A stretch of DNA of 64,000 bases from an uncultured Maribacter sp. (GTDB lineage Bacteria > Bacteroidota > Bacteroidia > Flavobacteriales > Flavobacteriaceae). Of the stretch, positions 4,635 to 22,435 are shown one piece after another (position 1 is the stretch's first letter; each line of letters begins with the position of its first letter). The notes under the pieces were generated by a model. It was given only the letters and a program-made list of their open reading frames with translations. It had not been told where the DNA came from and made no database searches. Position numbers and translations under genes: made by a program. The stretch covers positions 186,001 through 250,000 of the forward strand of contig NZ_CANMDU010000003.1 in NCBI RefSeq assembly GCF_947496775.1, written 5' to 3'.

Positions 4635-4677
4635 AGTTAATTTAATTAACCATTAACATAATTAATTATTATATTAG
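4635..4677 (+). promoter_or_regulatory. Double operator and -7-like element before the TonB receptor gene
   Basis: Copy one (4635-4651) is AGTTAA-TTTAA-TTAACC and copy two (4651-4667) is CATTAA-CATAA-TTAATT, 16 bp on. TATATTAG at 4670-4677 is one base from TAnnTTTG and starts 3 bp after the operator. This would leave a 5' leader of about 100 nt before the ATG at 4786. Confidence 0.65.
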
Positions 4678-8271: not shown

Positions 8272-8315
8272 AATAATAAAGCCTTTCCAATACTTATTGG
8301 AAAGGCTTTATTATT
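8272..8315. terminator. Bidirectional terminator between VOC and aldehyde dehydrogenase genes
   Basis: A perfect 21-bp stem, 8272-8292 paired with 8295-8315, with a 2-nt loop (CT, opening in practice to a larger loop). Each arm ends in T- or A-rich sequence, so it can stop transcription from both the converging VOC gene and the ALDH gene. The 3' arm overlaps the first bases of the ALDH stop codon. Confidence 0.85.
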
Positions 8316-9726
8316 ATTGCATTTCTTCAAAACCAGACATGGTATCTGGATGAGCTGTTTGAAATAGTACTGCCTTTTTTCTAAAAAAACGTAAAAAACC
8401 AGAGTCTCCCATGCGAGAACCATTTATACCAGACTCTTTAAATGAGTTTTTCTCTGCATCGAAAACTTTATTAGTAAGACTACCATCATTAATACTAATA
8501 GCACCAGCCTCTATTTGCGAAGCAATTTCTAAAGCTCTTTCTTTATTTTTAGAAAATACAGAAGCAGATAAACCAAATATACTATCGTTAGCTAAGGTAA
8601 TAGCTTCTTCGTCCGACTTAAAAGCCATAATTGGTATTACTGGTCCAAAAGTCTCCTCTGTCATTACTTGCATGCTATGATCTACATTAATTAAAACTGT
8701 AGGCCTACACCATAAACCTCCATTAATGTTTTTGACCTTACCACCTGTAAGTATTTTTGCTCCTTTTACTTCTGCCTCATCCAATTGTAGTTGAATTTTT
8801 TCTGCTTGCTTTTCAAAAATCAAAGGTCCCATCTGTCCTTTATTAGGGTCTGTTGTTAAAGTAACATCGGCAGATTTATTGGTAATAATTGTTACAAATT
8901 CATCATATATTTTTTCATCTACATAGATTCTTTCCAAGGATTGACAGGCTTGCCCTGTTGCTCCTACTGCACTTCTTAAAATGGCATCAGTCGCAACTTG
9001 CATATCCGCGTCATCTAATACAATTGCTGGGTCTTTTCCTCCCAATTCTAAAAAAGCAGGAATGAAACGTTCCGCACAAGCAGCTCCAATTTTTTTTCCA
9101 GTGGGCACGCTTCCTGTAAAACATATAGCATCTACACTTTGAACTACTGCTTTACCAGCTTCTGCACCACCACGCACTAATTTTAAAACACCATTAAGTT
9201 CTGGTACTTCTTGTATACTTTTTTCCAAACCATCCATAAACCTAGGTGTTACTTCACTTGGCTTTAGTAAAACCGAACACCCAGCTAGCAATGCAGGAAT
9301 AGTATCTATCAAGGCCAGTAATAAAGGAAAATTCCAAGGACTTATTACGCCAATTAATTGGTAAGGAACCCATTGTTGACCAATTTGTACTGTATTACAC
9401 GAAGCAGATTGTCTTTCCTTGGGAGGATTATATAATTGTGGCGCTCTAAAAAACCATGCTTCTAACAAACCAAATATGCCTTTTACCTCTACCTTAGCGA
9501 TTTGTTTTCTAGAGGTGTCAACAGCAAGTTGCTCGGCTATTTCATTTTCATACTTTTTAATACTCTCCAACCAATTTTTTAAAACGGAAACGCGTTCATC
9601 AATACTTTTAAGCTGCCATTTTTTTTGGTTTAAACGAGCATTATCCGCCATTGCAATAACGGACTCTGCACTATTTTCGCTTAGCTCATAATCAAACTCT
9701 CCCGTTCTTGGATTTCTTATTTTCAT
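8314..9726 (-). CDS. NAD(P)-dependent aldehyde dehydrogenase
   Basis: A 470-residue member of the aldehyde dehydrogenase superfamily, oxidising an aldehyde to the acid. Visible features are the ISPWNFP cofactor strand (128-134), the FTGS segment (203-206), the general base Glu227 in FLELGGKDP and the nucleophile Cys261 in GATGQACQS, followed by EETFGPV. All catalytic residues are intact and the length is normal. It is transcribed divergently from the lyase operon, from a shared 144-bp region with the double operator at 9805-9837, so it belongs to the same regulon. Together with the SDR genes it could carry an alcohol or aldehyde side chain to a carboxylate. The substrate cannot be read from sequence; the family is certain. 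Confidence 0.92.
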   Translation of the reverse strand: MKIRNPRTGEFDYELSENSAESVIAMADNARLNQKKWQLKSIDERVSVLKNWLESIKKYENEIAEQLAVDTSRKQIAKVEVKGIFGLLEAWFFRAPQLYNPPKERQSASCNTVQIGQQWVPYQLIGVISPWNFPLLLALIDTIPALLAGCSVLLKPSEVTPRFMDGLEKSIQEVPELNGVLKLVRGGAEAGKAVVQSVDAICFTGSVPTGKKIGAACAERFIPAFLELGGKDPAIVLDDADMQVATDAILRSAVGATGQACQSLERIYVDEKIYDEFVTIITNKSADVTLTTDPNKGQMGPLIFEKQAEKIQLQLDEAEVKGAKILTGGKVKNINGGLWCRPTVLINVDHSMQVMTEETFGPVIPIMAFKSDEEAITLANDSIFGLSASVFSKNKERALEIASQIEAGAISINDGSLTNKVFDAEKNSFKESGINGSRMGDSGFLRFFRKKAVLFQTAHPDTMSGFEEMQ

Positions 9727-9779: not shown

Positions 9780-9851
9780 CTAAGTTAATCGAAAAAATCG
9801 TAATAGTTAACCTTATTAACTATTAATTTACTTAACTTTTTTGTACTTTAG
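9780..9851. promoter_or_regulatory. Divergent promoter with double operator between ALDH and lyase operon
   Basis: Copy one (9805-9821) is a perfect AGTTAA-CCTTA-TTAACT with arms extendable to 9 bp (9802-9824). Copy two (9821-9837) is TATTAA-TTTAC-TTAACT, 16 bp on. Rightwards, TACTTTAG at 9844-9851 is one base off TAnnTTTG and starts 7 bp after the operator. Leftwards, TAACTTAG on the minus strand (9787-9780) is an equally imperfect candidate for the ALDH gene. Confidence 0.75.
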
Positions 9852-9870: not shown

Positions 9871-10773
9871 ATGAAAGTAATTCTTGAAGAACAAGGACTA
9901 AGAGATGGTTTTCAAACCCTCTCCAAAATAATTCCAACTACTAAAAAATTGGAATATATTAACCTGCTTATTGAGGCGGGTATAACTCGTATACAAGTAG
10001 CATCTTTTGTTCATCCAAAATTAGTGCCTCAAATGGCAGACGCCGAAGAAGTCTGTAAAAACCTTAAACCCAAACCTGGAATAATTTATAGCGGTTTAGT
10101 ACTTAACAAAAAAGGCGTTGAAAGAGCAATTGATACTGGATTACAGCACCTAGCATGTTCTATATCGGCAAGTGATACCCACAGTCAAAAAAATGCGAGA
10201 CTTACTCTTTCTGAAGCAAAAAAGACTTTTCAAGAAATGGTTAAACTTTCTAAGGCTAACAAAATTACGGTACGTGGTGGTATACAATGTGCTTTTGGTT
10301 GTAGGTATGAAGGTATAATAGACGAGAATCATGTTCTCGATATGGTAGAACATCATTTAGACTCCGGAATCGACGAAATAGCTTTGGCAGATTCCACTGG
10401 CATGGGAAATCCAAAACAATTGGGCGAGTTAATGTCTAAAGTTGTAGAAAAGGCAAAGGACATTCCGGTTATTCTACACCTTCATAATACAGAAAATAAA
10501 GGTTATGCCAATTTATATGCTGCGATTGAAGGTGGTGTTCAAATTTTTGACACGGCTTTCGGTGGTCTTGGCGGATGCCCTTTCATAAAAAGTGCCACTG
10601 GGAATATTGCCACAGAAGATAGTGCCAATATGATTCATCAAATGGGTTACCAAACTGGAATAAATATTAATAAAGTGGCTGAAATAAGTAAAGAATTAGA
10701 ATCTACTCTTGGTCATGAACTACCAGGACAATTATACAAATTACTAGATAATAACACTATTAAAATGATCTAA
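9871..10773 (+). CDS. HMG-CoA lyase-like enzyme, candidate citramalyl-CoA-type lyase
   Basis: A 300-residue DRE-TIM enzyme of the HMG-CoA lyase family, which cleaves a 3-hydroxyacyl-CoA into an acyl-CoA and an oxoacid. LRDGFQ at 10-15 carries the Arg-Asp pair, HLH at 203-205 gives the metal ligands, and GGLGGCPF (231-238) holds the signature Cys236, followed by GNIATED. The ATG at 9871 is preferred: a TTG 30 bp upstream would overlap the -7 element. In this operon with a CoA-transferase and a LeuCD-like hydro-lyase, the closest described parallel is R-citramalyl-CoA lyase of Chloroflexus, also an HMG-CoA lyase homologue. A role in leucine breakdown is the alternative, but none of the other leucine genes lie in the operon. 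The stop codon overlaps the next ATG. Confidence 0.85.
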   Translation: MKVILEEQGLRDGFQTLSKIIPTTKKLEYINLLIEAGITRIQVASFVHPKLVPQMADAEEVCKNLKPKPGIIYSGLVLNKKGVERAIDTGLQHLACSISASDTHSQKNARLTLSEAKKTFQEMVKLSKANKITVRGGIQCAFGCRYEGIIDENHVLDMVEHHLDSGIDEIALADSTGMGNPKQLGELMSKVVEKAKDIPVILHLHNTENKGYANLYAAIEGGVQIFDTAFGGLGGCPFIKSATGNIATEDSANMIHQMGYQTGININKVAEISKELESTLGHELPGQLYKLLDNNTIKMI

Positions 10774-12008
10774 TGGGACAGACAATATCTGAAAAAATAA
10801 TATCGAACCATGTAGGGCATAAAGTTTATGCAGGGGAGCTTGTAATTAGCAATGTAGATGGTGCTATGGCTAGTGACACTACTGGACCTTTAACCATTAA
10901 AGCATTTAAAGAAATGGGAGGTAAAAAGGTTTTTAATCCTGATAAATGTGCCTTAATTATTGACCATGCCGCGCCATCACCTAACGAACGTATCGCCAAT
11001 TTACATAAAATGATGCGCGATTTTGCAAAAGAACAAGGTATGCGTCTTTTTGAAATAGGTGAAGGTATATGCCACCAAGTAATGGTAGAAAACCAATATG
11101 TAAAACCCGGAGATATTTTTATTGGTGCAGATTCTCATACCCCAACTTACGGTGCGTTAAATGCGTTTGCTTGTGGGGTTGGCTCTACGGATTTAGCTGC
11201 CGTAATGATGACCGGAAAAATATGGTTAAAAGTACCACAAACCATAAAGGTACATTGCTCAGGAAAATTAAAAGATGGTGTTACTGCTAAAGATTTAATT
11301 TTGTTTTTAGTTGGTAAAATAACCGTTTCAGGAGCTACTTACCAAGCCATAGAATTTTGCGGAGAAGCTTTTGAAGGATTGAGTCTTGCTAGTAGAATGA
11401 CCATTGCCAACATGTCGTCAGAAATGGGAGCAAAAACAGGTATTGTACATCCTGCTGGTTTAGAATTAGATTACGATTTTAGTGCCATTACCCCAGACGA
11501 AGACGCCAAGTATATTAAAACTTTCGATTTTGACGTATCCGATTTAGAACCCCAAGTTAGTGCGCCAGAATCTCCAGATAATGTACACAACATATCTAAC
11601 TACGAAGGAACTAAAGTAGACTATGCTTTTATAGGTACTTGCTGCAATGGCAGGCTAGAAGATTTAGATATTGCTGCTAAGATTTTAAAAGGCAAAAAAA
11701 TACACCCAGATGTGCGATTAATTATTGCTCCTGCTTCTCAAAGTGTTTTACTAGATGCTATGAGTAATGGTACTATGGCTACACTTATAGAATCTGGCGC
11801 ATCTTTAATAACATCGGGTTGTGGCCCGTGCGTAGGAACACATCAAGGTGTTCCCGCAGATGGCGAAGTTGTTATTTCTGCAGCAAACAGGAATTTTAGA
11901 GGAAGAATGGGTAACCCAAATTCTAACATATACTTAGGAGCACCAGCCACTGTAGCTGCATCTGCTTTAGAAGGTAAAATTATTAACCCCAAAAAATATT
12001 TAATATGA
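10773..12008 (+). CDS. Aconitase-family hydro-lyase, large subunit (LeuC/DmdA-like)
   Basis: A 411-residue large subunit of the short, archaeal-type isopropylmalate-dehydratase family; it also contains homoaconitase, citraconate/maleate hydratase and 2,3-dimethylmalate dehydratase. The three [4Fe-4S] ligands are present: Cys290 in GTCCNGR and Cys350/Cys353 in SGCGPCVG. The substrate-side motif GADSHTPTYGALNAFACGVGS begins at residue 118. The start overlaps the lyase stop (TAATG) and the end overlaps leuD-like by 4 bp (ATGA), so the two subunits are made together. No leuA or leuB is nearby, which argues against leucine synthesis; addition of water to a substituted maleate is the reading best suited to the context. 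Confidence 0.88.
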   Translation: MGQTISEKIISNHVGHKVYAGELVISNVDGAMASDTTGPLTIKAFKEMGGKKVFNPDKCALIIDHAAPSPNERIANLHKMMRDFAKEQGMRLFEIGEGICHQVMVENQYVKPGDIFIGADSHTPTYGALNAFACGVGSTDLAAVMMTGKIWLKVPQTIKVHCSGKLKDGVTAKDLILFLVGKITVSGATYQAIEFCGEAFEGLSLASRMTIANMSSEMGAKTGIVHPAGLELDYDFSAITPDEDAKYIKTFDFDVSDLEPQVSAPESPDNVHNISNYEGTKVDYAFIGTCCNGRLEDLDIAAKILKGKKIHPDVRLIIAPASQSVLLDAMSNGTMATLIESGASLITSGCGPCVGTHQGVPADGEVVISAANRNFRGRMGNPNSNIYLGAPATVAASALEGKIINPKKYLI

Positions 12009-12514
12009 GCTCCATAAATACAATAATAGAAGCTAAAGCACATGTGTATGGCGACCATATTGATACGGATCGTATTATCCCAGGAAAATACACCAAAACT
12101 CTAGATTTATCTACGCTAGCAAATCATGTTTTAGAAGATTTAGACCCAAATTTTAATAAAATAGTACAGAAAGGAGATATACTTATTGCTGGGATAAATT
12201 TTGGCTGTGGTTCCTCTAGAGAACAAGCACCTTTAGCATTAAAGCAATCCGGAATATCCGTAGTTATAGCAGAAGATTTTGCTCGTATTTTTTTTAGAAA
12301 TGCTATTAATATTGGACTCCCCGTTCTTGAAATTGGCAAACATACTATTCAAAAAGGAGCAAAAATTGCAGTAAATCTAAAAGAAGGAACAGTTACAGAT
12401 ATTACTGCCAATAAAATATATACTGCAACAAAATTGCCAGATATAATGATCGCTATCTTAAACGAAGGCGGATTAGTACCATATCTTAATAAAAATGGAA
12501 ATTATACTTTATAA
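12005..12514 (+). CDS. Aconitase-family hydro-lyase, small subunit (LeuD/DmdB-like)
   Basis: A 169-residue swivelling-domain subunit that completes the active site of the preceding large subunit. DTDRIIPGKY starts at residue 20 and the substrate carboxylate-binding GCGSSREQAP at 68-76. The loop after DTDRIIPG, which sets side-chain preference in this family, reads KYTKTLD here. I cannot assign a substrate from it, but it is where a comparison with DmdB, LeuD and homoaconitase small subunits would be informative. The length is normal for the archaeal-type small subunit. Coupled by a 4-bp overlap to the large subunit gene. Confidence 0.88.
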   Translation: MSSINTIIEAKAHVYGDHIDTDRIIPGKYTKTLDLSTLANHVLEDLDPNFNKIVQKGDILIAGINFGCGSSREQAPLALKQSGISVVIAEDFARIFFRNAINIGLPVLEIGKHTIQKGAKIAVNLKEGTVTDITANKIYTATKLPDIMIAILNEGGLVPYLNKNGNYTL

Positions 12515-12517
12515 ATT

Positions 12518-13078
12518 ATGAGTAGAATAGATCCCATAGCAAACCCAAAAGAAAGCGAGTTAGGCTCCCTATTTTCTAACGCAGAAAAATGGATGGGTTT
12601 TTTACCTAATGACGGACTTATTATGGCACATAAACCAGAGGTTCTAAAATCCTTTTTTTTATTGGCAAAAGCAGTATATGCAGAAGGTAAAGTTAATGCT
12701 GGCCTAAAAAGAATGATAGGACACCTTTCTAGCAAAGTAAGTGGTTGCCAATATTGTAGTGCCCACACTGCCTATGGAGCTAACGAGCAAGGTGTAGAAA
12801 AAGAAAAATTAGAAAAACTATGGGAATATAAAACCTCCCCTATCTTTTCTGAAGCAGAAAAAGCTGCTCTAAATATTACGGTTAATGGCAGTATGGTTCC
12901 TAACCAAACTACCGATGCCGATTTTATTGAGCTAAAAAAACATTATGACAGTGAAGCTATTGTAGAAATAGTAGGTGTAATTTCTATGTTCGGCTTTTTA
13001 AATAGATGGAACGCTACATTAGATACACAAATTGAAGATGCTCCAGAAACTTTTTATAAATCTTTAAATTCAAAATAA
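12518..13078 (+). CDS. Carboxymuconolactone decarboxylase/AhpD-like protein
   Basis: A 186-residue protein of the AhpD/CMD superfamily. The redox motif is intact: SGCQYCSAH with Cys77, Cys80 and His83, typical of peroxidase-related alkylhydroperoxidase D-like proteins rather than true carboxymuconolactone decarboxylases, which lack the Cys pair. It begins 3 bp after the leuD-like gene and ends directly at the start of the CoA-transferase gene, so it is part of the operon. It may defend oxygen-sensitive steps, such as the Fe-S hydro-lyase, against peroxide, or act on a pathway intermediate. The first is inference from the motif. Confidence 0.8.
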   Translation: MSRIDPIANPKESELGSLFSNAEKWMGFLPNDGLIMAHKPEVLKSFFLLAKAVYAEGKVNAGLKRMIGHLSSKVSGCQYCSAHTAYGANEQGVEKEKLEKLWEYKTSPIFSEAEKAALNITVNGSMVPNQTTDADFIELKKHYDSEAIVEIVGVISMFGFLNRWNATLDTQIEDAPETFYKSLNSK

Positions 13079-14257
13079 ATGAGTTCTCCTTTAAAAGGTA
13101 TAAAAGTATTAGAATTTACACATGCAGTTATGGGGCCTTGTGCTGGGCTTATGCTTGCAGATATGGGTGCAGATGTATTGCATGTAGAACCCGTACATGG
13201 CGATAGTACCAGAAGGCTACAAGGTTTTGGAACAGGGTATTTTTGGTTTTATAATAGAAATAAAAAAAGTCTTGCCGTAAATATTAAAACAGAAGAAGGT
13301 CGTAAAATTATTTATGATCTTGTAAAAGAATATGATGTTGTTGTAGAAAATTTTGGTCCTGGAACTATGGACCGTTTGGGGCTTGGGTATGATAAATTAA
13401 AACATCTAAACAAACGCCTCATCTATTGCTCTCTTAAGGGTTTTTTAAGTGGCCCTTATGAGAAGCGTCATGCAATGGATGAGGTTGTTCAGATGATGGG
13501 AGGGCTTGCATATATGACCGGTCGTGAAGGAGACCCTTTACGTGCAGGAACATCCGTAATAGATATTACAGGCGGTATGTTTGGTTATATTGGCATTTTA
13601 CAAGCATTATACGAACGTGAGAAAACAGGAGAAGGCGGCTTTGTAAAATCTGCTTTGTTTGAAACCTGTGCTTTTTTAATGGGGCAACACATGGCATATT
13701 CTTCACAAATAGATTATAAAATTCCGCCAATGCCATCAAGAGTAAGTGCTTGGTCTATTTATAAAGTTTTTGACACTAAGGACAATGACAAAACTTTTAT
13801 TGGCATTATAAGTGAAAAACATTGGGAACGTTTTTGCGAAGTTTTTAACTGGCAAGATTGGTTAGCCGACGAGCGCTTAAAAACGAACAACCTACGCATT
13901 GATGAACGAGAATGGTTTATCCCCGCATTAGAAGAAAGAGTTAAACAATTTACCAAACAAGAGATTATTGCAAAGTGCGAAAAAGGACATATTCCTTTTG
14001 CTCCAATAAGTAGACCCGAAGACCTTTTTGAAGATGAACAATTAAATAAAGGCAATAGTCTTATGGAGGTTGATATGGGAGGTGGTAAAATTACCAAACT
14101 ACCAAAATTCCCTATAGAATATAAAGGCACTAGAGTTAAAAAAAGATTAGATCCTCCAAAAATTGGAGAGCATACAACTGAAGTTTTAAAAGGCCTAAAT
14201 ATAGATGATGCAACTATTGAAAAAATGATTGCGGAAGGAATAATTAAAACAGAATAA
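13079..14257 (+). CDS. Class III (CaiB/BaiF) CoA-transferase
   Basis: A 392-residue family III CoA-transferase, which moves CoA between carboxylic acids through an aspartyl-CoA thioester. The catalytic Asp is Asp134 in KRHAMDEVVQMMGG, matching the Asp of formyl-CoA transferase. The N-terminal LKGIKVLEFTHAVMGPCAGLMLADMGADV is the usual opening and GHIPFAPI is present near the C-terminus. It starts on the base after the AhpD-like stop. In this operon it would activate the hydroxylated diacid made by the LeuCD-like enzyme so that the HMG-CoA-lyase-like protein can split it, parallel to succinyl-CoA:D-citramalate CoA-transferase, which is also class III. Carnitine- or bile-acid-type transfer is the main alternative. 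Confidence 0.88.
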   Translation: MSSPLKGIKVLEFTHAVMGPCAGLMLADMGADVLHVEPVHGDSTRRLQGFGTGYFWFYNRNKKSLAVNIKTEEGRKIIYDLVKEYDVVVENFGPGTMDRLGLGYDKLKHLNKRLIYCSLKGFLSGPYEKRHAMDEVVQMMGGLAYMTGREGDPLRAGTSVIDITGGMFGYIGILQALYEREKTGEGGFVKSALFETCAFLMGQHMAYSSQIDYKIPPMPSRVSAWSIYKVFDTKDNDKTFIGIISEKHWERFCEVFNWQDWLADERLKTNNLRIDEREWFIPALEERVKQFTKQEIIAKCEKGHIPFAPISRPEDLFEDEQLNKGNSLMEVDMGGGKITKLPKFPIEYKGTRVKKRLDPPKIGEHTTEVLKGLNIDDATIEKMIAEGIIKTE

Positions 14258-14261
14258 TCTT

Positions 14262-14693
14262 ATGAAATTAGTAGCTACCATATTTTGTACGTTATTTATT
14301 TACATGGGTTGTATTTCTCAAGAAATAAGTACTGCTGAAAAAGAACAAATATTACTTCAGATTACGAATTTAAAAACCGCACATCTAAATAGTGATGCAG
14401 TCTTGGCAGATAAAATATACCATGATAATCTTATTCTTACTTCTCAAAGTGGAAAAAAATATAGTAAAAAAGAAGCCTTAGCAAATATTAAGAACGCTTT
14501 TGAAAGTTATGAGAATTCGGATATTTCCTTTCTAAAAATTGATACTAATGTAATTCTAACAAATTATAGTAACAAACGAAAGTTTAAAGAGTTTGATGAA
14601 GGGGAATATAGACTTACTGTAGTATGGAAAAAACAAGAAACTAATTGGGTTATAATTTCAATGCAATCTTCGAAAATCAAAAAAAAGAAATAA
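14262..14693 (+). CDS. Small SnoaL/DUF4440-like lipoprotein
   Basis: A 143-residue protein with a short N-terminal hydrophobic stretch and a probable lipobox (IYMGC, Cys near residue 17). The rest fits the NTF2-like alpha+beta barrel of DUF4440/SnoaL proteins: the helix ILLQITNLKTAHLNSDAVLADKIY, a YSKKEALANIKNAF helix, and paired strands ending in YRLTVVWKKQETNWVIISMQ. Such folds bind small hydrophobic ligands or act as cyclases, isomerases or hydratases. It starts 4 bp after the CoA-transferase gene and ends 17 bp before the amidase-like gene. As an envelope protein inside an operon of cytoplasmic enzymes it again suggests an extracytoplasmic step. Confidence 0.65.
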   Translation: MKLVATIFCTLFIYMGCISQEISTAEKEQILLQITNLKTAHLNSDAVLADKIYHDNLILTSQSGKKYSKKEALANIKNAFESYENSDISFLKIDTNVILTNYSNKRKFKEFDEGEYRLTVVWKKQETNWVIISMQSSKIKKKK

Positions 14694-14710
14694 AATTTAA
14701 AAATAGTACT

Positions 14711-15373
14711 ATGCAGACCACAGATAAAACAGCCAAAGAACTTTATTTTGAAGTAAAAGCTAACCCAGCACGTAAACGTTTTGGGTTTGGTAAAAAAGCT
14801 GCTTTAGTCAATATAGATATACAAAAAGCATATACCAGAACCGATCTTTTTAAAACAGCTTATCAAAATGATCCCAAACAGTTGGATTATGTAAATGAAT
14901 TAGCCGCGAAATTCAGAAAATTAGGATGGCCAGTAGTCTGGACCAATGTTGCTTATATGGATACTGCTGCCGATGCCGGAGTATGGGGAACCCGAACCGA
15001 CACTCCAGATAGTTTACAAAACATAAAATTTGGTTCCGAACGTTCGGAATTAGATGATCGTTTAATTTTAGATAGGAGCACCGATGTTTTTTATGAAAAG
15101 AAAATGCCTTCTCCTTTTTTTGAAACTCCATTACAATCCCTTTTAGTATGGCATCAGGTAGATACTATTATTCTTACTGGCGGCTCTACTTCTGGCTGTA
15201 TTAGAGCTGCAGGAGTAGATTCTCTTTCTAGAGGATATAGAACTATAATTCCTGAAGAATGCGTTGCAGATAAACATGAGAGTTACCATTATGCAAATCT
15301 TACAGATTTATCTTTAAAATATTGCGATGTTAGAGAAGTTAATGAAGTTTTCACTTGGCTAAATAATATATAA
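14711..15373 (+). CDS. Isochorismatase-superfamily amidohydrolase, N-carbamoylsarcosine/maleamate amidase type
   Basis: A 220-residue cysteine hydrolase that releases ammonia from an amide. The triad is visible: Asp36 in LVNIDIQKAYT, Lys130 or Lys131 in YEKKMPSPFF, and Cys163 in GGSTSGCIRAAGVDS. The stretches KMPSPFFETPL, GSTSGCIRA and ECVADKHESYHYANLTDLSLKY match the N-carbamoylsarcosine amidase / NicF maleamate amidohydrolase branch rather than isochorismatase or nicotinamidase. The ATG at 14711 is chosen; an upstream in-frame ATG lies inside the preceding gene and would add an unrelated Lys-rich tail. Between a ring-opening pair and a maleate-hydratase-like enzyme, a substituted maleamate is the natural substrate. 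This last point is inference. Confidence 0.85.
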   Translation: MQTTDKTAKELYFEVKANPARKRFGFGKKAALVNIDIQKAYTRTDLFKTAYQNDPKQLDYVNELAAKFRKLGWPVVWTNVAYMDTAADAGVWGTRTDTPDSLQNIKFGSERSELDDRLILDRSTDVFYEKKMPSPFFETPLQSLLVWHQVDTIILTGGSTSGCIRAAGVDSLSRGYRTIIPEECVADKHESYHYANLTDLSLKYCDVREVNEVFTWLNNI

Positions 15374-15375
15374 TT

Positions 15376-16326
15376 ATGAAGGAAGACCCAGGATACTACG
15401 ATTATTGGCCTTACGAAAACAGACCCAAAATTAAATGGCCTAATGGGGCTAAAGTTGCTTTTTGGGTGGCTCCAAATATTGAATTTTACGAGCTAAATCC
15501 TCCAAATAATCCTTTTAGGAAACCATGGCCGCAACCCAATCCTGCTTTACCGGGTTATACCAGTAGAGATTGGGGTAATAGAGTTGGACATATTCGCCAA
15601 ATGAAACTTTTAGAAAAATATGGTATTCGCGGTTCTATATCCCTTTCTACCGCTTTATGCGACCATCATCCAGAAATAATAGAATTGTGTAAAGAACGTA
15701 ATTGGGAGTTTTTTAGCCACGGCATATATAATACAAGATATACCTATGGAATGTCTGAAATTCAAGAAAGAGACATGATAAAAGATTCTATAGAAACCAT
15801 ATACAAACATACCGGACAAAAATGTGCGGGATATTTAGCCCCTGCCCTTTCTCATTCCGAAAATACCTTAGATTTATTTGCAGAAGTAGGCACTGAATTG
15901 TTTGGAGACGAAGCGGGATTTTATTCCTGTGATTTATTTCACGATGACCAACCAACTCCAATTCATCTAAGAAGCGGAAAACGTTTTGCTTCTATTCCTT
16001 ATTCTTTAGAAATGAATGATACTATTGCGTACTTAGTTCAAAAAATAACGCCTCGTAGATACGGACAAGAACTTAAGGATAATTTTGACCGCCTTTATGC
16101 GGAGGGTGCCGAAAGCGGAACTATTATGTGTATACCCACGCATAATTACCAAGTAACCAATGCACATCGTATAAAAGCATATGAAGAAGCCCTAGAATAC
16201 ATTACAGGGCATCCCGATGTTTGGGTTACTACTGGAAAAGAAATTGCTACTTTCTTTTTAGATAATTATTATGAGACTTCTTTAAAGGACATTCAAGAAA
16301 AAAACAATCGTTATGGCATTAGATAA
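15376..16326 (+). CDS. PuuE-like polysaccharide-deacetylase-fold hydrolase, copy 1
   Basis: A 316-residue member of the NodB-fold branch that contains PuuE allantoinase and related cyclic amide/imide hydrolases. The opening PKIKWPNGAKVAFWVAPNIEFYE and the YTSRDWGNRVGHIRQMKLLEKYGIRGS segment are typical of that branch; the TFDD motif of peptidoglycan and chitin deacetylases is missing, and only part of the H-xxx-H motif is seen (SHGIYNTRY). No signal peptide is present, which also speaks against a cell-wall substrate. It starts 2 bp after the amidase-like gene and overlaps its own paralogue by 14 bp. Opening of a cyclic imide to a half-amide for the neighbouring amidase is the best fit. Confidence 0.8.
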   Translation: MKEDPGYYDYWPYENRPKIKWPNGAKVAFWVAPNIEFYELNPPNNPFRKPWPQPNPALPGYTSRDWGNRVGHIRQMKLLEKYGIRGSISLSTALCDHHPEIIELCKERNWEFFSHGIYNTRYTYGMSEIQERDMIKDSIETIYKHTGQKCAGYLAPALSHSENTLDLFAEVGTELFGDEAGFYSCDLFHDDQPTPIHLRSGKRFASIPYSLEMNDTIAYLVQKITPRRYGQELKDNFDRLYAEGAESGTIMCIPTHNYQVTNAHRIKAYEEALEYITGHPDVWVTTGKEIATFFLDNYYETSLKDIQEKNNRYGIR

Positions 16327-17233
16327 ATCGTACCTAGAATATCCAGAGCGTTCCTATGGTATGGATCATGAGCGTTACGAATGGAATATGCTTAGCAACA
16401 GAAAACCTATAGTATGGCCTAAGGGTAAAAAAATTGCTCTTTGGGTTAATGTAGGAGTTCAATTTTTTCCGCTAAACCAAAAAGGAATTCCATTTAAAGT
16501 TCCTGGTGGTATGACAAAGCCATATCCAGATTTACGGCACTACAGTTTAAGAGATTATGGTAACCGAGTTGGTATTTATCGTTTTTTTAAAGCGTTAGAT
16601 AAATATAATATAGTACCAACTTTTGCTATGAATACGAGACTTGCAGAACGTTTACCCTATTTAACAGGAACAATAAAAGATAGAGGTAATGAAATTTTGT
16701 GTCATGGTTATGACATGGATAAATTACATTACGGCGGACAAAATATAAAAGAAGAAAAAGAATTGGTAAAACGTTCTTTAGATGGACTAAGAAATCTAAC
16801 AAAACAAGATATTAAAGGTTGGGTTAGTCCCGCAAAAAATGAATCGGAAAACACCCCAGATATATTAGCAGAAAATGGCATTACTTATTTTTGCGATTGG
16901 GTAAATGATGAAATGCCATACAATTTTAAAACAAAAAATGGTATCTTAACAGCTATGCCATTGACTACAGAATTAGATGATCATTTTATTATTTTAAACA
17001 ATCTTCATTCCGCTGAAGATTGGAAACATCAAGTAATAGATGCTTTTCATTTTCTGTTACAAGAAACGGAAACGCAAGGAGGAAGAATTTTAAGTATAAA
17101 TATTCATCCATGGATACTAGGGCAACCGCATAGAATTAAATATTTAGAGCACGTTTTAGATTTTCTCGGAAGTCATGAAGCGGTATGGTCCACATCGGCT
17201 AGCTCCATTTTAAAAGCTTGGAAAAACAACTAA
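16313..17233 (+). CDS. PuuE-like polysaccharide-deacetylase-fold hydrolase, copy 2
   Basis: A 306-residue paralogue of the preceding protein with the same order of motifs (KPIVWPKGKKIALWVNVGVQFF, YSLRDYGNRVGIYRFFKALDKY, LCHGYDMDKLHYGG, WVSPAKNESENTPDILAENG). The two are diverged outside these segments. The 14-bp overlap (shared bases 16313-16326) makes coupled translation and a hetero-oligomer likely. Both copies keep the HG of the second NodB motif, but the residues after it differ (HGIYNTRY against HGYDMDKL), so the copies may differ in metal binding or substrate. No signal peptide. The function is inferred from family and context. Confidence 0.78.
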   Translation: MALDKSYLEYPERSYGMDHERYEWNMLSNRKPIVWPKGKKIALWVNVGVQFFPLNQKGIPFKVPGGMTKPYPDLRHYSLRDYGNRVGIYRFFKALDKYNIVPTFAMNTRLAERLPYLTGTIKDRGNEILCHGYDMDKLHYGGQNIKEEKELVKRSLDGLRNLTKQDIKGWVSPAKNESENTPDILAENGITYFCDWVNDEMPYNFKTKNGILTAMPLTTELDDHFIILNNLHSAEDWKHQVIDAFHFLLQETETQGGRILSINIHPWILGQPHRIKYLEHVLDFLGSHEAVWSTSASSILKAWKNN

Positions 17234-17246
17234 AAATAAAATATAA

Positions 17247-18152
17247 ATGACGGCACAAATCTTATCCTATATTCCTGTCATTTTACAAATTATTTTATTC
17301 CTTGTTATGTTAGGAATGGGTTTAACACTTACTATTAAAGATTTTAAAAGAGTAGGCGTAGCTCCAAAAGCAATTTTTGTAGGCCTCTTTAATCAAATAG
17401 TACTTGTTCCTATTATTGCATTTACCATTATTGCTATTGTACCCATGCAACCAATGGTTGCTATGGGATTAATGATTGTAGCCTGTTGTCCTGGAGGAGC
17501 GGTATCCAACTTATTTTCGCACTTAGCAAAAGGTGATACTGCTTTATCTATAAGCCTAACCGCTATTTCTAGTTTGATAACCATCATCACTATTCCCTTT
17601 ATAATAAATTTCTCTTTAGATGCAATTTTAGGGACATCCTCCAAAAGTATACAGCTCCCTTTTGGACCTACCGTATTCAATATTTTTAAGTTAACGGCCC
17701 TTCCTGTTCTAATTGGAATGTACATTAAACATAAATTTCCTCTTTTTTCAGAAAAAAGTAAATCCGTAATTTCTTGGGGCTCCGGAATAGTTATTATTTT
17801 AGCTCTAGTACTAATGATTATGAAACTGGAAGAAATTGGAGACAGTTGGTATTTTATTAAAGCGTCTTTTTTAGGTGTAATCTTACTAAATGTAGCTACG
17901 CTTTCCGTTGGATATTTTAGTGCCAAATCTTTAAAAATATCTACCAAACAAGCGGCAACAATAGCCATTGAAAGTGGTATGCAAAATAATGTCTTAGGAA
18001 TGACAATTGCTCTTTCCGCCGGACTTTTAAACGAACCAAAGATGGCCGCTACAGCAGGTGTTTATGGTGTAGTAATGTGTGTTATTGCTGTTGGGGTAAT
18101 AGCTATATTTACTCGAATAATTGCTAGGGAGAAAAAGACTGCTTTATCATGA
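17247..18152 (+). CDS. Bile acid:sodium symporter-family (BASS/SBF) transporter
   Basis: A 301-residue integral membrane protein with about nine hydrophobic helices. The motif VACCPGGAVSNLFSHLAKGDTALSISLTAISS is the first crossover region of the BASS/SBF family, and the second half has ATIAIESGMQNNVLGMTIAL, the second crossover with the conserved E-x-G-x-Q-N. Members import organic anions such as bile acids, pyruvate, pantoate or sulfonates with sodium. In this operon it may carry a carboxylic acid intermediate across the inner membrane after an extracytoplasmic step. The gene begins 13 bp after the deacetylase pair and overlaps the next gene by 4 bp. Confidence 0.88.
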   Translation: MTAQILSYIPVILQIILFLVMLGMGLTLTIKDFKRVGVAPKAIFVGLFNQIVLVPIIAFTIIAIVPMQPMVAMGLMIVACCPGGAVSNLFSHLAKGDTALSISLTAISSLITIITIPFIINFSLDAILGTSSKSIQLPFGPTVFNIFKLTALPVLIGMYIKHKFPLFSEKSKSVISWGSGIVIILALVLMIMKLEEIGDSWYFIKASFLGVILLNVATLSVGYFSAKSLKISTKQAATIAIESGMQNNVLGMTIALSAGLLNEPKMAATAGVYGVVMCVIAVGVIAIFTRIIAREKKTALS

Positions 18153-19042
18153 AAAAACCGTTAAGAACATCTGTTCTAATACTGCTCTTTATTTGCTTTA
18201 TAGCAATAGGATGTATGGAGCAACAAGAGGAGAGTAAAGATAACCTTCCAGCTAAAGAAAATACAGCTCAAATTTTCACTTATGACCTTAACAATCCAAA
18301 AGACAAGGTTTTACTCTATGAAAAATTACAAAGTGATGTTACCGAAAAGAAAACCTATGTTTTTACAGAAACTCGTGTTTTTGGAGTAAGACCGGATAAG
18401 ACAGAATCCCTGAATGAATTTGGTAAAGAGCTATTTCGGTATTCAAGTTGCGAAATAAAAATAAAAAGAGTTCTGGAAGATGGTAATATCGAAGGTAAAT
18501 CTAAAATAGCTCGCATTTACCAGGACCCAATAACTAATAAGTACATTGAAAAAATTAAGAACCCATACCATTTAGACACCCTATCTCTCCCAATATACAT
18601 TTCAAAACCAAATGGTGGTATCATGACACCAAATGGGCCTGTTACTGGGTTTAATATGCAAATAGAAAGTACCGCTATAGGAAAACCTTTAAATTTTGTT
18701 ATTACTGAATTAGAAGAACAATTTTGTTTAACAAGACACTCTTTTACAAAGTGGTATTCTAAAAAAAATAACAGCTGGAGAACTCGGATGGGAATGGACA
18801 CATATTATTTTGATAAAAAATATATGATGGATCGTTCATTTAGTTATATTCCATCAATACATACTAAAATGAGCCAAGATAATTGGATTCCTCAACTTAA
18901 TCTAGCAAATGCACGTGGACATATGACCTATACTTCAATTGTGCGGCGCTATTTTTCTAAAGATAAAATGCCAAAAGATTTTGTTAGTATTATTGAGACA
19001 CAGGAGCCTATTTTCTTTGATGCTATCATATCTTGGAATTAA
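18149..19042 (+). CDS. DUF1838-like lipoprotein, second member
   Basis: A 297-residue lipoprotein; the lipobox IAIGC puts the acylated Cys near residue 22. The body starts with YDLNNPKDKVLLYEKLQSDVTEKKTYVFTETRVFG, followed by ELFRYSSCEIKIKRVLEDG, IYQDPITNKYIEKIKNPY and, near the end, ARGHMTYTSIVRRY. This order of strand, fat-hydrophobic segment, D-P-x-T-N-x and NPY recalls DUF1838 proteins (DP-ETG-V.. NP). The gene overlaps the transporter by 4 bp and is followed after 16 bp by an SDR gene. It is only distantly similar to the 3462-4343 protein. Biochemistry is unknown; presence of two in one regulon suggests that the family has a direct role in the pathway. Confidence 0.55.
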   Translation: MKKPLRTSVLILLFICFIAIGCMEQQEESKDNLPAKENTAQIFTYDLNNPKDKVLLYEKLQSDVTEKKTYVFTETRVFGVRPDKTESLNEFGKELFRYSSCEIKIKRVLEDGNIEGKSKIARIYQDPITNKYIEKIKNPYHLDTLSLPIYISKPNGGIMTPNGPVTGFNMQIESTAIGKPLNFVITELEEQFCLTRHSFTKWYSKKNNSWRTRMGMDTYYFDKKYMMDRSFSYIPSIHTKMSQDNWIPQLNLANARGHMTYTSIVRRYFSKDKMPKDFVSIIETQEPIFFDAIISWN

Positions 19043-19058: not shown

Positions 19059-19832
19059 ATGAACCTACATCTTAACAATAGACTGTTTTTAGTTGGTGGT
19101 GCCACTAGTGGTTTTGGTAAAGCAATTACAGAACAATTAATTTCTGAGAACGCTAAAGTTATTGCAGTTGCCCGTACTATTGAAAAACTAAAAGAACTTC
19201 AAAAATTAAGTGATAACATAGAAATTATTGCTGGCGATTTATCGGATGAAAAAGTTTTGGATACTATCGTAAATACTATAGGAAATAGAGTTTTAACAGG
19301 AGCAGTTATTAACTCTGGCGGACCACCGGCAATGCCTGTTTTGGATACAAAGTTATCTGATTGGGATGATGCTTACAAAACTGTAGTACGTTGGAAAATT
19401 GGGTTAACACAAGCCCTAATACCTAAAATGATAGAGCAACAATATGGTCGTTTACTATATATTGAAAGTGTTTCGGTTAAACAACCTATAGAAAATTTAG
19501 TACTTAGCAACGCCATGCGATTAGCTGTAGTGGGTTATGTAAAAACACTTTCTCAAGAAATAGGAGCTTCTGGCGTTACCTTAAATATTCTTGGCCCTGG
19601 ATTTCATGCCACGCAACGAATGGAAAACCTATTCAAAAAAAACAGCGAACTTAAAGGAATTCCGGAATCAGAAATTAGAGCTTCAGTAGCCAAACAAGCG
19701 GCAATGGAAAAAATAGGTAGTCCTAATGATTTTGCTTCTTTAGCACTTTGGTTACTATCACCGCATAGTGGTTATATTTCGGGTCAGACTATATCAGTAG
19801 ATGGCGGGTTAGTAAAAGGCACTATGGGATAA
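19059..19832 (+). CDS. SDR-family protein with altered active site
   Basis: A 257-residue Rossmann-fold protein of the short-chain dehydrogenase/reductase superfamily. The nucleotide motif is GGATSGFG at 13-20 and the C-terminal SGYISGQTISVDGGL is standard. The catalytic YxxxK is not there: the aligned segment is LSNAMRLAVVGYVKTLS, where Ser150 takes the place of Tyr and Arg154 the place of Lys. A minority SDR branch with an S-N-x-x-R arrangement exists, so this may be a working enzyme with another mechanism rather than a dead one. Last gene of the lyase operon; it converges with the next SDR gene with a 3-bp gap. Confidence 0.8.
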   Translation: MNLHLNNRLFLVGGATSGFGKAITEQLISENAKVIAVARTIEKLKELQKLSDNIEIIAGDLSDEKVLDTIVNTIGNRVLTGAVINSGGPPAMPVLDTKLSDWDDAYKTVVRWKIGLTQALIPKMIEQQYGRLLYIESVSVKQPIENLVLSNAMRLAVVGYVKTLSQEIGASGVTLNILGPGFHATQRMENLFKKNSELKGIPESEIRASVAKQAAMEKIGSPNDFASLALWLLSPHSGYISGQTISVDGGLVKGTMG

Positions 19833-19835: not shown

Positions 19836-20600
19836 TTAGTGCATACCTGCACCCCCATTTACATGTAAGCATTGTCCCGTCATATGTGATGCCCCAGCAC
19901 TTAATAAAAACAAAACAACAGAACTTATTTCTTCTGGTTTAGCAATAGAACCTAAAGGAACAATTTTTTGGTATTGCTCTTTATTAATCCGTGTAGACCC
20001 ATCTTCCTTATAAATAAAGTTAGTATCAACAGCTCCTGGTGCTACCGTATTTACTCTTGTATTTGGTGCTAACTCCGCCGCTAAGGTTTTACTAAAACTA
20101 ATTACCGAAGCTTTTGCTGCACTATAAGGACCATAATTTTTTTGTCCAATAAAAGCTAAACCAGAAGACATATTTACCACCGAAGAATTTGGCGTATTTC
20201 TTAAAAGTGATGCAAAAGCTTTACAAGAATTAAAACAACTTTTAAAACTAATATTATAGGTATGGTTCCATTCTTGCATACTCATTTCTTCAATAGATTT
20301 AAAATAAGTAATTGCGCCAGATAAATTTACCAAGCCAATAATTTCGTTAGTTTGTTCCTTTACAAAATCTACAAATCGTAGAATAGCATTTTCATCTAAA
20401 GGATCTACTTGGGAATAGGAGTAATTTTCCGTTAAAGTGCTTTTAGAGTGTTCTTGAATATCTGCACCAATTACTCTAGCATTAATCTCTAATAATTGCT
20501 TTATTAATGCTATACCAATGCCGCTATTACAACCAATAATAACTACAAAATTTTTGTTTGCTTTATATAACTGTTCTATCATTCTTTCTTCTTTCTCCAA
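19836..20600 (-). CDS. Short-chain dehydrogenase/reductase, intact catalytic residues
   Basis: A 254-residue NAD(P)-dependent oxidoreductase. The dinucleotide motif is GCNSGIG near residues 23-29 and the catalytic Ser and YSAAK are intact (NMSSGLAF, then GPYSAAKASVISFSKTLAAEL); the end GQCLHVNGGAG is the usual SDR C-terminus. It is read after the 20579-21334 gene, which it overlaps by 22 bp, and belongs to the leftward unit that starts with the alpha/beta-hydrolase-fold gene. It could oxidise an alcohol for the aldehyde dehydrogenase of the cluster. Substrate unknown. A second in-frame ATG six codons downstream is possible. Confidence 0.88.
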   Translation of the reverse strand: MEKEERMIEQLYKANKNFVVIIGCNSGIGIALIKQLLEINARVIGADIQEHSKSTLTENYSYSQVDPLDENAILRFVDFVKEQTNEIIGLVNLSGAITYFKSIEEMSMQEWNHTYNISFKSCFNSCKAFASLLRNTPNSSVVNMSSGLAFIGQKNYGPYSAAKASVISFSKTLAAELAPNTRVNTVAPGAVDTNFIYKEDGSTRINKEQYQKIVPLGSIAKPEEISSVVLFLLSAGASHMTGQCLHVNGGAGMH

Positions 20601-21344: not shown

Positions 21345-22376
21345 TTAAATTTCTGTAAACCATTTTACCATAAGATTTTGTATTTCCTGGGCGCTAAAAT
21401 TTGGGTTTTCCCTTTTAAGTATTTCCCAAGCTTCAAAAAAATGTAAACCATCAGCTGAAATTTTGGGAATCTTTCTGTTGGGTATTTTTCCTTTAATAAC
21501 AGATTTTATTTCTGGCTCTTGACTAAACTTCTCCGGCTGCTGATAGTTTAGCACACCCTCTTTTTTACTTCTAATTAGCTTAATCATTTCTAAATTTCTT
21601 TCTGTATGCCCCTCTGGTATGGAAACAGCCTCAACATGTTCCGGAAAATCAAAAGCAAGCAAATCGTCAATGTGCTTTTTAATTATGCTTCCTTTCCATC
21701 TAAAAATGGTAGTGGGTACTTTTAATTGTTGTACATATTCTCCCTTTTCATGTAAAAATGCTGCCTTATACGCTAAATGATATATTCCTCCTGCTTTTAA
21801 AAAATCTAGTGCAATCATATGCAAGGCTTCTTTAGGTAATTGTGGACGGTTAAGGGCATATTCACTTTCCGCAAAACACCATGGAAAATACTGAAACATT
21901 CTATTAACCATTACCCAAACTTGTCTAAGGTGACTGCCATTTATTACAGGTGTGAGATCTGGAAAATAATGCCGTAATATAGCGGCACGTAAATTATCAT
22001 TAAAATGAGCTGCATTATCTAAAAAAATATGAGAAACTTCATTTGGATAATCTAATGCATATCTTATTGCAAGTTGCGCCCCGGTTGCCGAACCGTATAA
22101 AAGTGGTTGTTCTACTTCAATTTCTTTAAAAAAAATATGCAATACTTCTGTATAGTCACTTAAACTTGTTGGATCAACGTTTAATCTATCCGATTTTCCA
22201 TAACCAGGAGTATCTACACAAATCACAGTATAGTCAAAAGCTAATTCTTTAGCTAAAGGCAAAAGAAGTTCCCCCGAGTGCGGAGAGGGGTGAAACATAA
22301 CAAGTGCGGGTCCATCACCCATTATATAATAATGAACCTTTAAATTACCTACTGTAACCCATCTTCTCTTTTCCAA
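21345..22376 (-). CDS. Alpha/beta-hydrolase-fold protein without the nucleophile serine
   Basis: A 343-residue protein with a complete alpha/beta-hydrolase core at about 12-255 and a C-terminal extension of some 80 residues (LNYQQPEKFSQEPEIKSV onwards) that I do not recognise. The oxyanion strand (MFHPSPHSG) and the DTPGYGKSD turn are typical. The nucleophile elbow reads G-S-A-T-G at 95-99, so Ala97 stands where Ser, Cys or Asp is expected; the codons are GGT TCG GCA ACC GGG. A His is still present in PEGHTERN. This may be a non-hydrolytic member (lyase, cofactor-free oxygenase or binding protein) or may use Ser96. First gene of the leftward unit, under the 22403-22435 operator. Confidence 0.8.
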   Translation of the reverse strand: MEKRRWVTVGNLKVHYYIMGDGPALVMFHPSPHSGELLLPLAKELAFDYTVICVDTPGYGKSDRLNVDPTSLSDYTEVLHIFFKEIEVEQPLLYGSATGAQLAIRYALDYPNEVSHIFLDNAAHFNDNLRAAILRHYFPDLTPVINGSHLRQVWVMVNRMFQYFPWCFAESEYALNRPQLPKEALHMIALDFLKAGGIYHLAYKAAFLHEKGEYVQQLKVPTTIFRWKGSIIKKHIDDLLAFDFPEHVEAVSIPEGHTERNLEMIKLIRSKKEGVLNYQQPEKFSQEPEIKSVIKGKIPNRKIPKISADGLHFFEAWEILKRENPNFSAQEIQNLMVKWFTEI

Positions 22377-22402
22377 AATAAAAATGTTATATTAAAAATT
22401 TT

Positions 22403-22435
22403 AGTTAATATAGTTAATTATTTACAATGTTAACT
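22403..22435. promoter_or_regulatory. Double operator between the divergent hydrolase-fold and MDR reductase genes
   Basis: Copy one (22403-22419) is AGTTAA-TATAG-TTAATT and copy two (22419-22435) is TATTTA-CAATG-TTAACT, 16 bp on. Rightwards TATTTTTA at 22446-22453 is a -7 candidate one base off TAnnTTTG. No good -7 element was found leftwards. The 160-bp gap 22377-22536 holds nothing else. Confidence 0.65.

Follow-up and report, generated by a model that had tools for sequence, protein, structure and literature searches.

We analysed a 64,000-nucleotide stretch of DNA from an uncultured Maribacter sp. (the window; contig NZ_CANMDU010000003.1 of the genome here called G000), in which a first-pass annotation, made from the sequence alone, had proposed a pathway for opening and cleaving alkyl-substituted cyclic imides at 9871–17233. 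An operon occupies this span on the plus strand, with all the named genes in their order and almost no space between them (gaps of -14 to +17 bp), and it belongs to a ten-gene plus-strand run at 9871–18152. The annotation's six-gene set is therefore all there, but its list fell short of the CMD-family, DUF4440 and SBF-family genes. The run reads as follows:

9871–10773, plus strand: lyase resembling hydroxymethylglutaryl-CoA (HMG-CoA) lyase (HMGL; PF00682), the proposed alkylmalyl-CoA lyase
10773–12008, plus strand: large subunit of a LeuC/HacA-family hydro-lyase, the proposed alkylmaleate hydratase
12005–12514, plus strand: small subunit of the LeuD/DmdB family (TIGR02087, 199 bits, cut-off 109)
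12518–13078, plus strand: CMD-family protein, by family match
13079–14257, plus strand: class III CoA-transferase of the CaiB type, with Asp134 (PF02515)
14262–14693, plus strand: DUF4440 protein, by Pfam match
14711–15373, plus strand: isochorismatase-fold amidase, in an open reading frame (ORF) from 14645, the proposed half-amidase
15376–16326, plus strand: PuuE1, a PuuE-type cyclic amide hydrolase and the proposed imidase
16313–17233, plus strand: PuuE2, a second PuuE-type protein and possible partner subunit
17247–18152, plus strand: SBF-family transporter, by family match, just past the span annotated earlier

The operon is real, its genes are those described earlier, and their catalytic residues are intact. 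The amidase scores 97.6 bits with Pfam (cut-off 27), which places it among the isochorismatase-fold amidases, and the Asp-Lys-Cys set that had been read as intact is kept by its relatives: Asp58 in 97/98, Lys152 in 98/98 and Cys185 in 98/98 (numbered from the ORF start at 14645). HMGL belongs to its superfamily by the hydroxymethylglutaryl-CoA lyase model (292.9 bits, cut-off 246); R11, D12, H203, H205, C236 and N245 are each present in 32/32 relatives, so the HxH motif and Cys236 noted at first sight hold. Likewise, the CoA-transferase is a class III member (PF02515, 360.8 bits, cut-off 23.3) with the predicted Asp134 in 39/40 relatives. The two-subunit aconitase-type enzyme is a hydro-lyase of the LeuCD/HacA/DmdAB type, as judged from LeuC (NF001614, 559 bits, cut-off 385) together with LeuD; the three Fe-S cysteines of LeuC (290, 350 and 353) are kept in 61/61 relatives, and its score with the leucine-biosynthetic model TIGR00170 is 230.7 bits, below the cut-off of 560.25. 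The substrate loop of LeuD reads IIPGKYTKT in the window type and IIPSREMK or LIPARFMKE in others, a comparison that is not decisive.

The claim of two PuuE-like homologues in one operon also stands: PuuE1 and PuuE2 belong to the PuuE-type branch of the polysaccharide deacetylase family (PF01522, 34.6 and 37.7 bits, gathering threshold 23.1), and both score far below the equivalog cut-off of the PuuE allantoinase model (TIGR03212, 99.6 and 108.5 bits, cut-off 424.6). In a search of solved structures that covered PuuE1 of the pair, its best relative was PuuE (PDB 3cl6), both by sequence and by profile (E = 1e-25). Glu36, His115 and His256 of PuuE1 are kept in 88/89 relatives. PuuE2 conserves His131 (75/77) and His265 (69/77), and has Gln50 (63/77) where PuuE1 has Glu36, a correspondence matched by eye. 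This pattern suggests that PuuE2 might be a partner subunit and not itself a second catalyst.

To place the operon among its relatives, we compared G000 with G026 and G215, which represent two other genera of the same family, and with G152, from the same genus. A PuuE1 orthologue at ≥91% identity is found in 3/299 family genomes (G000, G026 and G215); four more have only a 27–28% homologue, and G152 gave no PuuE1 match. From 24 window proteins compared, 18 are kept in one block in G215 and 19 in G026. G215 is without the DUF4440 gene and one short-chain dehydrogenase (SDR), G026 is without the other SDR, and at this place both are missing the DUF1838 gene (18149). Across a sample of the phylum, PuuE1 matches occur in 3/395 genomes (G000, and G311 and G330 at 62–63%). 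A scan of species genomes found at least 578 stretches encoding PuuE1 relatives, and the best 80 of them, selected by PuuE1 alone, form our locus set: 17 are from Bacteroidota (Maribacter, Croceitalea and others) and 63 from other groups, mostly Gammaproteobacteria. Matches were also present in 84 plasmid records, including conjugative plasmids of Burkholderia plantarii and Acidiphilium and a mobilizable one of Sphingomonas sp. JE1.

The amidase, PuuE1 and PuuE2 stand together in 80/80 loci (the triad; 79/80 when the amidase is counted at ≥35% identity and half coverage). As a control, homologues of other window genes were found in 0/4 loci around the 27–28% PuuE homologues of the same family, and LeuC, CaiB and HMGL relatives (≥35% identity, half coverage) in 0/7 loci of distant PuuE pairs or homologues. 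Conservation of the block in two other genera, together with the triad in every locus, argues that the gene arrangement is not due to chance.

The triad occurs in more than one setting. In the window-type version it accompanies LeuCD, CaiB and HMGL; in Halomonas, Marinobacter and others it accompanies LeuCD, a lyase of the isocitrate lyase/phosphoenolpyruvate mutase type (ICL/PEPM), a flavoprotein and a GntR regulator, and the Halomonas ventosae locus also has a TRAP transporter binding protein. The Haliea group has both lyase versions. Among the 59/80 loci with >19 kb of sequence, on which our co-occurrence table is built, LeuC is present in 42, and a lyase of either kind is found in 40/42 loci with LeuC vs 5/17 without it (Fisher 4e-7, with the loci falling into no more than 14 groups at 85% PuuE1 identity); HMGL only is found in 16, ICL only in 26 and both in 3. 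The ICL/PEPM lyase matches methylisocitrate lyase, petal death protein and 2,3-dimethylmalate lyase. Both kinds of lyase would cut the C2–C3 bond of an alkylmalate, one as the free acid and the other as the CoA ester. The case for an alkylmalate intermediate rests most strongly on this exchange of two unrelated lyases next to the same LeuCD and triad, which also gives independent support to the proposed order of reactions.

Some loci carry further genes of related kinds. On the plasmids of Sphingomonas sp. JE1 (pJE1, locus L025) and Sphingobium TomTYG65 (L030), two different LeuCD pairs and CaiB/HMGL plus an ICL-type lyase surround one triad. Genes of the Asp/Glu-racemase family, which includes maleate isomerase, lie near the triad at L025:21597–22385 and L029:24953–26538. 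In Salipiger abyssi pPABY2 (L027), two amidases, HyuAB and a nadA–aspartate oxidase–nadC set flank the triad.

Phylogeny of LeuC and HMGL had been set beforehand as a way to refute the proposal, and in both trees the triad-linked proteins fall outside the leucine clades. The LeuC tree holds 52 proteins from chosen loci with an ORF of 330–619 aa (L070 gave none), each LeuC copy having a retrieved locus. Fifteen were labelled as housekeeping, with leuD beside all 15 and leuB or a leuA-like stretch beside 13; these, Escherichia coli LeuC and two further genomic copies make up a clade of 18 (support 95/92), which includes 0/34 of the triad- or island-linked LeuC proteins. By this placement the window LeuC is not a leucine-biosynthetic isopropylmalate isomerase (IPMI). 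The linked proteins are instead spread over several lineages: the window's HacA-type, 12 rows in a JE1/Haliea group, another 12 in a Halomonas/Marinobacter group, and a second JE1 type. LeuC2 of an operon upstream of the window (described below) and the Burkholderia LeuC (2 rows in the window's part of the tree) have long branches and are of unsure placement. In the HMGL tree (42 proteins, ORFs of 240–400 aa, chosen loci), 8/8 HMGLs encoded beside biotin carboxylase group together in a single clade (100/100) from which every triad-linked HMGL is absent, so the window HMGL is not placed among the leucine-degrading HMG-CoA lyases. Its own clade (8 rows, of which two are the same protein; 100/100) stands apart from the JE1 clade (10 rows, 100/99), and further triad-neighbouring HMGLs fall in two more clades. 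In addition, the window genome encodes a separate LeuCD, close to a stretch resembling LeuA (30% to E. coli LeuA), as well as a second HMGL (32% identity). The system illustrates how one reaction sequence can be put together more than once from enzymes of unrelated lineage.

The operon is part of an island of ~75 kb, whose other genes within the window are:

1–1964, minus strand: pyruvate dehydrogenase E1 of the AceE type, partial here (888 aa whole, G000:C3:185298–187964); PDB match of 946 bits, conserved in G026 and G215
2303–3331: protein paralogous to that at 23550–24662, possibly of VOC fold; weak glyoxalase match, no good family or PDB match
3462–4343, minus strand: DUF1838 protein (PF08894) with a lipobox-like start by simple scan
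4786–7440, plus strand: TonB-dependent receptor, conserved beside the block
8314–9726, minus strand: aldehyde dehydrogenase, divergent from the operon across an operator-like palindrome
18149–19042, plus strand: DUF1838 protein, by Pfam match, with a lipobox-like start by simple scan
19059–19832, plus strand: SDR (PF13561/PF00106)
19836–20600, minus strand: SDR, by similarity to the 19059–19832 protein
21345–22376, minus strand: alpha/beta hydrolase, by family match, conserved in the block
22537–23538, plus strand: curcumin-reductase-like NADPH reductase, below the equivalog cut-off
23550–24662, plus strand: possible VOC-fold protein with a signal-peptide-like start, without Pfam or NCBIfam match, conserved in the block
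24732–25793, plus strand: nitrilase-superfamily amidase (NIT), true start probably later
25843–26346, plus strand: MarR regulator, forming the NIT-MarR unit 24732–26346
26384–29917, minus strand: propionyl-CoA carboxylase operon, with the beta subunit at 26384–27934, biotin carboxylase at 27956–29437 and biotin carboxyl carrier protein (BCCP) at 29438–29917

The carboxylase beta subunit is of the propionyl-CoA type, scoring 711 bits as propionyl-CoA carboxylase vs 247 as the methylcrotonyl and 225 as the geranyl enzyme. The gene for E2, the partner of E1, is just outside the window (L152:17982–19277; PF00198/PF00364). The sole PDB match of the 23550–24662 protein is weak (E = 0.26, glyoxalase family). 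NIT also lies beside the triad in G311 and G330, and MarR in G311.

Upstream of the window, the same genome has a second operon with LeuC2, an amine-oxidase-type flavoprotein, LeuD2, an HpaI-type aldolase, a HapK-like protein, an SDR, HyuA, a flavocytochrome-c-family flavoprotein (L152:2001–3428), HyuB, a methyltransferase and two small proteins; HyuB, the methyltransferase and one small protein are named via their G330 relatives. The closest match of the island HyuA is a lactam hydrolase, caprolactamase (560 bits, under the cut-off of 1000). Most genes of this operon form a single run with the triad and NIT in G311 and G330, and outside the Bacteroidota some recur beside the triad: homologues of the methyltransferase and of the 117-aa protein in 11/63 loci each, of the HapK-like protein in 8/63 and of the SDR in 7/63. 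At the left end of the island are cytochrome-c-like and amine-oxidase-type genes, named by eye or by similarity to the island flavoproteins. The Pfam scans took in most of the window's ORFs as far as 49106, plus a selection from L152 and L153; 49135–62407 and L242 lay outside their range. A 239-aa protein (L152:16572–17291), related to a DUF3108-named protein of JE1, was considered as a CpeT relative, and the family scan gave no support for this. A formylglycine-generating-enzyme-like protein (L153:12347–13297) is 72% conserved in G026 near the island. Outside the island, the window has a GH113 protein (33245–34246) and two glycosyltransferases (39667–41842); elsewhere in the genome, at G000:C8:40963–42736, a region paralogous to CaiB-type genes has an in-frame TAA stop followed by a second CaiB-type match.

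A 21-bp palindrome, ATAGTTAA-N5-TTAACTAT, precedes the window operon. We noticed it after viewing the data and then tested it in other genomes. Within the window, with ≤1 mismatch allowed and A or T as the first and last base (the W-form), it occurs at six positions:

2010–2030: one mismatch to the W-form; the pyruvate dehydrogenase E1 gene starts 56 bp away
4633–4653: one mismatch, upstream of the TonB-dependent receptor gene
9803–9823: exact ATAGTTAA-N5-TTAACTAT, between the operon and the aldehyde dehydrogenase gene
22401–22421: one mismatch, between the alpha/beta hydrolase and reductase genes
24722–24742: exact, at the start of the NIT-MarR unit
30000–30020: perfect TTAGTTAACATTGTTAACTAA, upstream of the carboxylase operon

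All six (6/6) are before or at island genes, and none is found in 30021–64000. Genome-wide, the sites that fall in the island number 14/14 in G215 and 8/8 in G026 (66 kb), 9/14 in G000 (75 kb) and 9/11 in Maribacter vaceletii (76 kb); in a Saprospiraceae metagenome-assembled genome, 9/11 are on one contig. G152, which is without the cluster, has two. A reversed-pattern control gave 3 sites in G000, 5 in G215, 7 in G026, 3 in M. vaceletii, 2 in the Saprospiraceae genome and 2 in G152. In the Saprospiraceae genome an exact site off the island contig is 96 bp before genes for BCCP, biotin carboxylase, carboxylase beta and two mutase-like proteins, which we tentatively take, from a motif, to be methylmalonyl-CoA mutase subunits; the leftmost island site in G215 and G026 precedes an operon of the same carboxylase and mutase-like kind. 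The palindrome thus stands before carboxylase genes in G000, G215, G026 and the Saprospiraceae genome. The operon is probably the central part of a regulon under MarR control, the MarR protein of the NIT-MarR unit being the presumed partner of the palindrome.

Exact palindromes are also found off the island. At G000:C6:136152 (L251:6152) one precedes a thioesterase-like (266 aa) and a nitronate-monooxygenase-like (313 aa) gene, with MFS and AMP-ligase-like genes as neighbours (all names by eye). At G000:C8:214866 (L252:6866) and G679:C6:13164 (L256:8164) the gene that begins at the palindrome resembles, by eye, a cysteine desulfurase, and its neighbours are the same in both genomes.

From gene families, catalytic residues, co-occurrence, phylogeny and the palindrome, we infer the reactions and substrates of the operon. 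We hold it moderately probable that, within its regulon, the operon mineralises small alkyl-bearing cyclic imides by a stepwise route to a 2-oxoacid and an acyl-CoA. PuuE1/PuuE2 would hydrolyse the imide ring to the half-amide, and the isochorismatase-fold amidase would remove ammonia from it to leave a dialkylmaleate. LeuCD would then add water to give a dialkylmalate, which the CaiB-type transferase would convert to its CoA ester and the HMG-CoA-lyase-like enzyme would cleave to a 2-oxoacid and an acyl-CoA. The pyruvate dehydrogenase-type E1/E2 would take the 2-oxoacid; propionyl-CoA carboxylase, and then the mutase, would take the acyl-CoA. Because the palindrome is shared with the propionyl-CoA carboxylase and pyruvate dehydrogenase genes, the expected end products are propionyl-CoA and a 2-oxoacid, and with these outlets the substrate ring probably has two substituents, a methyl and another alkyl (an ethyl, vinyl or carboxyethyl group). 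Propionyl-CoA would require the methyl on one ring carbon, and the other substituent would end in the 2-oxoacid; plain maleimide or citraconimide would yield no propionyl-CoA. We predict that a ring of the hematinic-acid type gives propionyl-CoA and 2-oxoglutarate, and that ethyl-methyl-maleimide gives propionyl-CoA and 2-oxobutanoate. The maleimide route of the first-pass annotation is therefore supported in part: the two lyase versions, the phylogeny and the palindrome favour its order, but the system is much larger than six genes, with a second LeuCD pair, caprolactamase-like HyuAB, CpeT and DUF1838 proteins and a regulon.

Several points weigh against this pathway. The reaction assignments are predictions from sequence. 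The co-occurrence counts, spread over 14 groups at 85% PuuE1 identity, are not phylogenetically independent, and in 10/59 loci the triad has no LeuC, CaiB, HMGL, ICL or flavoprotein gene nearby, which implies that it also serves other routes or works with unlinked genes. In G000, 5/14 palindromes are outside the island, and since G026 has 7 control sites against 8 palindromes, only clustering, and not number, supports an operator there. In addition, the best named relatives of PuuE1 and PuuE2 are allantoinases, PuuE itself being one, and among solved structures the amidase is closest to N-carbamoylsarcosine amidohydrolase. These relationships speak for a cyclic ureide of the hydantoin or allantoin type as the substrate of PuuE1/2 and the amidase, with the other genes unrelated, as do genes named hydantoinase or oxoprolinase near the triad (Salipiger, Acidiphilium) and in the wider island, and a rutA-named gene near the Terrarubrum triad. 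We nevertheless give this account little credence: LeuCD, CaiB, HMGL and ICL, drawn from different gene lineages, are repeatedly found next to the triad in two phyla, the nearest relative of the island HyuA acts on a lactam, and 10 annotated regions have no urate-, allantoate- or ureidoglycolate-named neighbour. Type II loci, finally, encode a flavoprotein of the flavocytochrome-c/fumarate-reductase family, a hint that the imides are saturated in that setting; one of its weaker matches (all below cut-off) is tricarballylate dehydrogenase. A saturated imide of the succinimide type might be opened first and oxidised to the maleate level later, and a flavoprotein of this family is encoded in 23/59 loci (>19 kb) and in the upstream operon of the window genome. 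Yet the window operon has no flavoprotein gene and the loci with HMGL but no ICL lack one in 16/16 cases, so for this order of events, too, we see a low probability.

The same tricarballylate dehydrogenase match would suit a six-membered ring, glutaconimide (a tautomer of 2,6-dihydroxypyridine) from pyridine catabolism, which PuuE1/2 would open and the amidase would turn into an aconitate-like acid for LeuCD. A precedent is HxnM, which opens a six-membered hydroxyglutarimide in nicotinate breakdown (PMC9304392), and in Arthrobacter crystallopoietes a distant PuuE pair (the first 35% to PuuE1) lies behind a molybdenum enzyme of the xanthine-dehydrogenase family and before an asparaginase. That locus has no LeuCD or HMGL homologue, however, a molybdenum hydroxylase is absent from the scanned part of the window and island proteins, and an aconitate would need no dedicated CoA-transferase, lyase or propionyl-CoA carboxylase; we consider this substrate unlikely. 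It is more improbable still that LeuCD, CaiB and HMGL serve leucine, itaconate or citramalate metabolism beside a triad that is there by chance. HMGL does pass the cut-off as a hydroxymethylglutaryl-CoA lyase, and LeuC as a member of the aconitase/IPMI/homoaconitase family, but the genome has the separate LeuCD and second HMGL described above, the trees put the triad-linked proteins outside the leucine clades, and the triad also stands side by side with operon genes in other genera and phyla, with one palindrome common to them.

If alkyl-bearing imides are the substrates of the operon, their source has to be considered. To our knowledge, no bacterial route that returns the nitrogen and carbon of alkyl maleimides or hematinic acid to circulation has been described. 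Two CpeT/CpcT-family proteins with exported-type starts are encoded in the upstream stretch (PF06206, 60.8 and 52.6 bits, cut-off 21). In 19 genomes searched, CpeT genes were found in 6/6 triad-bearing Bacteroidota, in or near the island and in 3 or 4 copies each (20 in total), not at all in G152, and as one copy in 2/12 triad-bearing Proteobacteria; among 14 control genomes only a cyanobacterium matches. One of the proteobacterial copies (G693:C3:218810) is ~17 kb from the triad (L088), the contig being shared since the L088 DUF1838 gene is at C3:191841. DUF1838 genes occur in 6/6 triad-bearing Bacteroidota, in 2/5 Proteobacteria (in one far from the triad), and in neither G152 nor the 14 controls (0/14). 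Across the family, CpeT is present in 22/299 genomes, with three weaker-scoring copies in each of the three triad genomes and one stronger-scoring copy in each of the other 19; because those 19 are without the triad, CpeT as such is no proof of bilin use. Its clustering in or beside the island of six Bacteroidota does make pyrrole pigments the boldest candidate source.

We tentatively raise the possibility, which we regard as rather doubtful, that the island is dedicated to mineralising pyrrole pigments; bilins, or other open-chain products of heme, chlorophyll or phycobilin breakdown, would be the likeliest. Capture and oxidation of the pigment would fall to the exported CpeT-family proteins, their DUF1838 partners, the TonB receptor, cytochrome c and exported flavoproteins of the amine-oxidase type. 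The lactam and imide rings of the pigment would be opened by caprolactamase-like HyuAB and PuuE1/2, and each methyl-bearing ring would end as propionyl-CoA and a 2-oxoacid via the window operon. Gammaproteobacteria with the short TRAP-transporter version would scavenge acidic imides that are set free, for example hematinic acid. One study (PMC7318184) describes maleimides and hematinic acid in leaves and sediments as products of chlorophyll and heme oxidation and puts yearly chlorophyll turnover on the 10^12 kg scale; its own leaves contained hematinic acid and no maleimides. Whatever the source of the imides, the analysis yields a concrete and widespread gene set (at least 578 stretches encoding PuuE1 relatives) with a predicted operator, predicted products and testable substrates, and a possible setting for DUF1838 proteins and for CpeT proteins outside phototrophs.

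The first-pass annotation knew of no pathway with this full set, and we likewise found no description among the titles and abstract openings of the literature searched, where subscription journals mostly lie outside coverage. Parts of it resemble known systems. PuuE allantoinase (PDB 3cl6) is of the same family as PuuE1, but it is encoded by one gene rather than the two adjacent ones here, and the pair scores far below its equivalog cut-off. In the nicotinate fermentation of Eubacterium barkeri, DmdAB, of the LeuCD family, and 2,3-dimethylmalate lyase likewise hydrate an alkylmaleate and then cleave a C–C bond to give a 2-oxoacid and a propionate unit, and that lyase is of the same superfamily as the one in the ICL/PEPM loci. 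The alkylmaleate of E. barkeri, however, comes from a carbon-skeleton rearrangement and not from an imide, and the window has a CoA-transferase and an HMGL-type lyase instead. CoA-transferase and lyase action on 2-methylmalate is known from Chloroflexus, whose enzymes belong to the class III CoA-transferase and HMG-CoA lyase families. The two, (R)-citramalate CoA-transferase and (R)-citramalyl-CoA lyase, are named enzymes (EC 2.8.3.20 and 4.1.3.46; PMC8307300); there the pair acts without an imide or LeuCD step, and the window enzymes are likened to it by function, with orthology not implied. A likeness to the opening steps is found in Aspergillus nidulans, where knock-outs and metabolites support a PuuE-related cyclic imidase (HxnM) followed by an amidase (HxnN) in nicotinate breakdown (PMC9304392). 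This likeness is by description, not by sequence comparison: HxnM/HxnN convert a six-membered hydroxyglutarimide to alpha-hydroxyglutarate with one imidase gene, and the excerpt of that account names no LeuCD, CoA-transferase or lyase step, whereas the window operon would pair two PuuE-type proteins with the amidase and carry the product on through all three.

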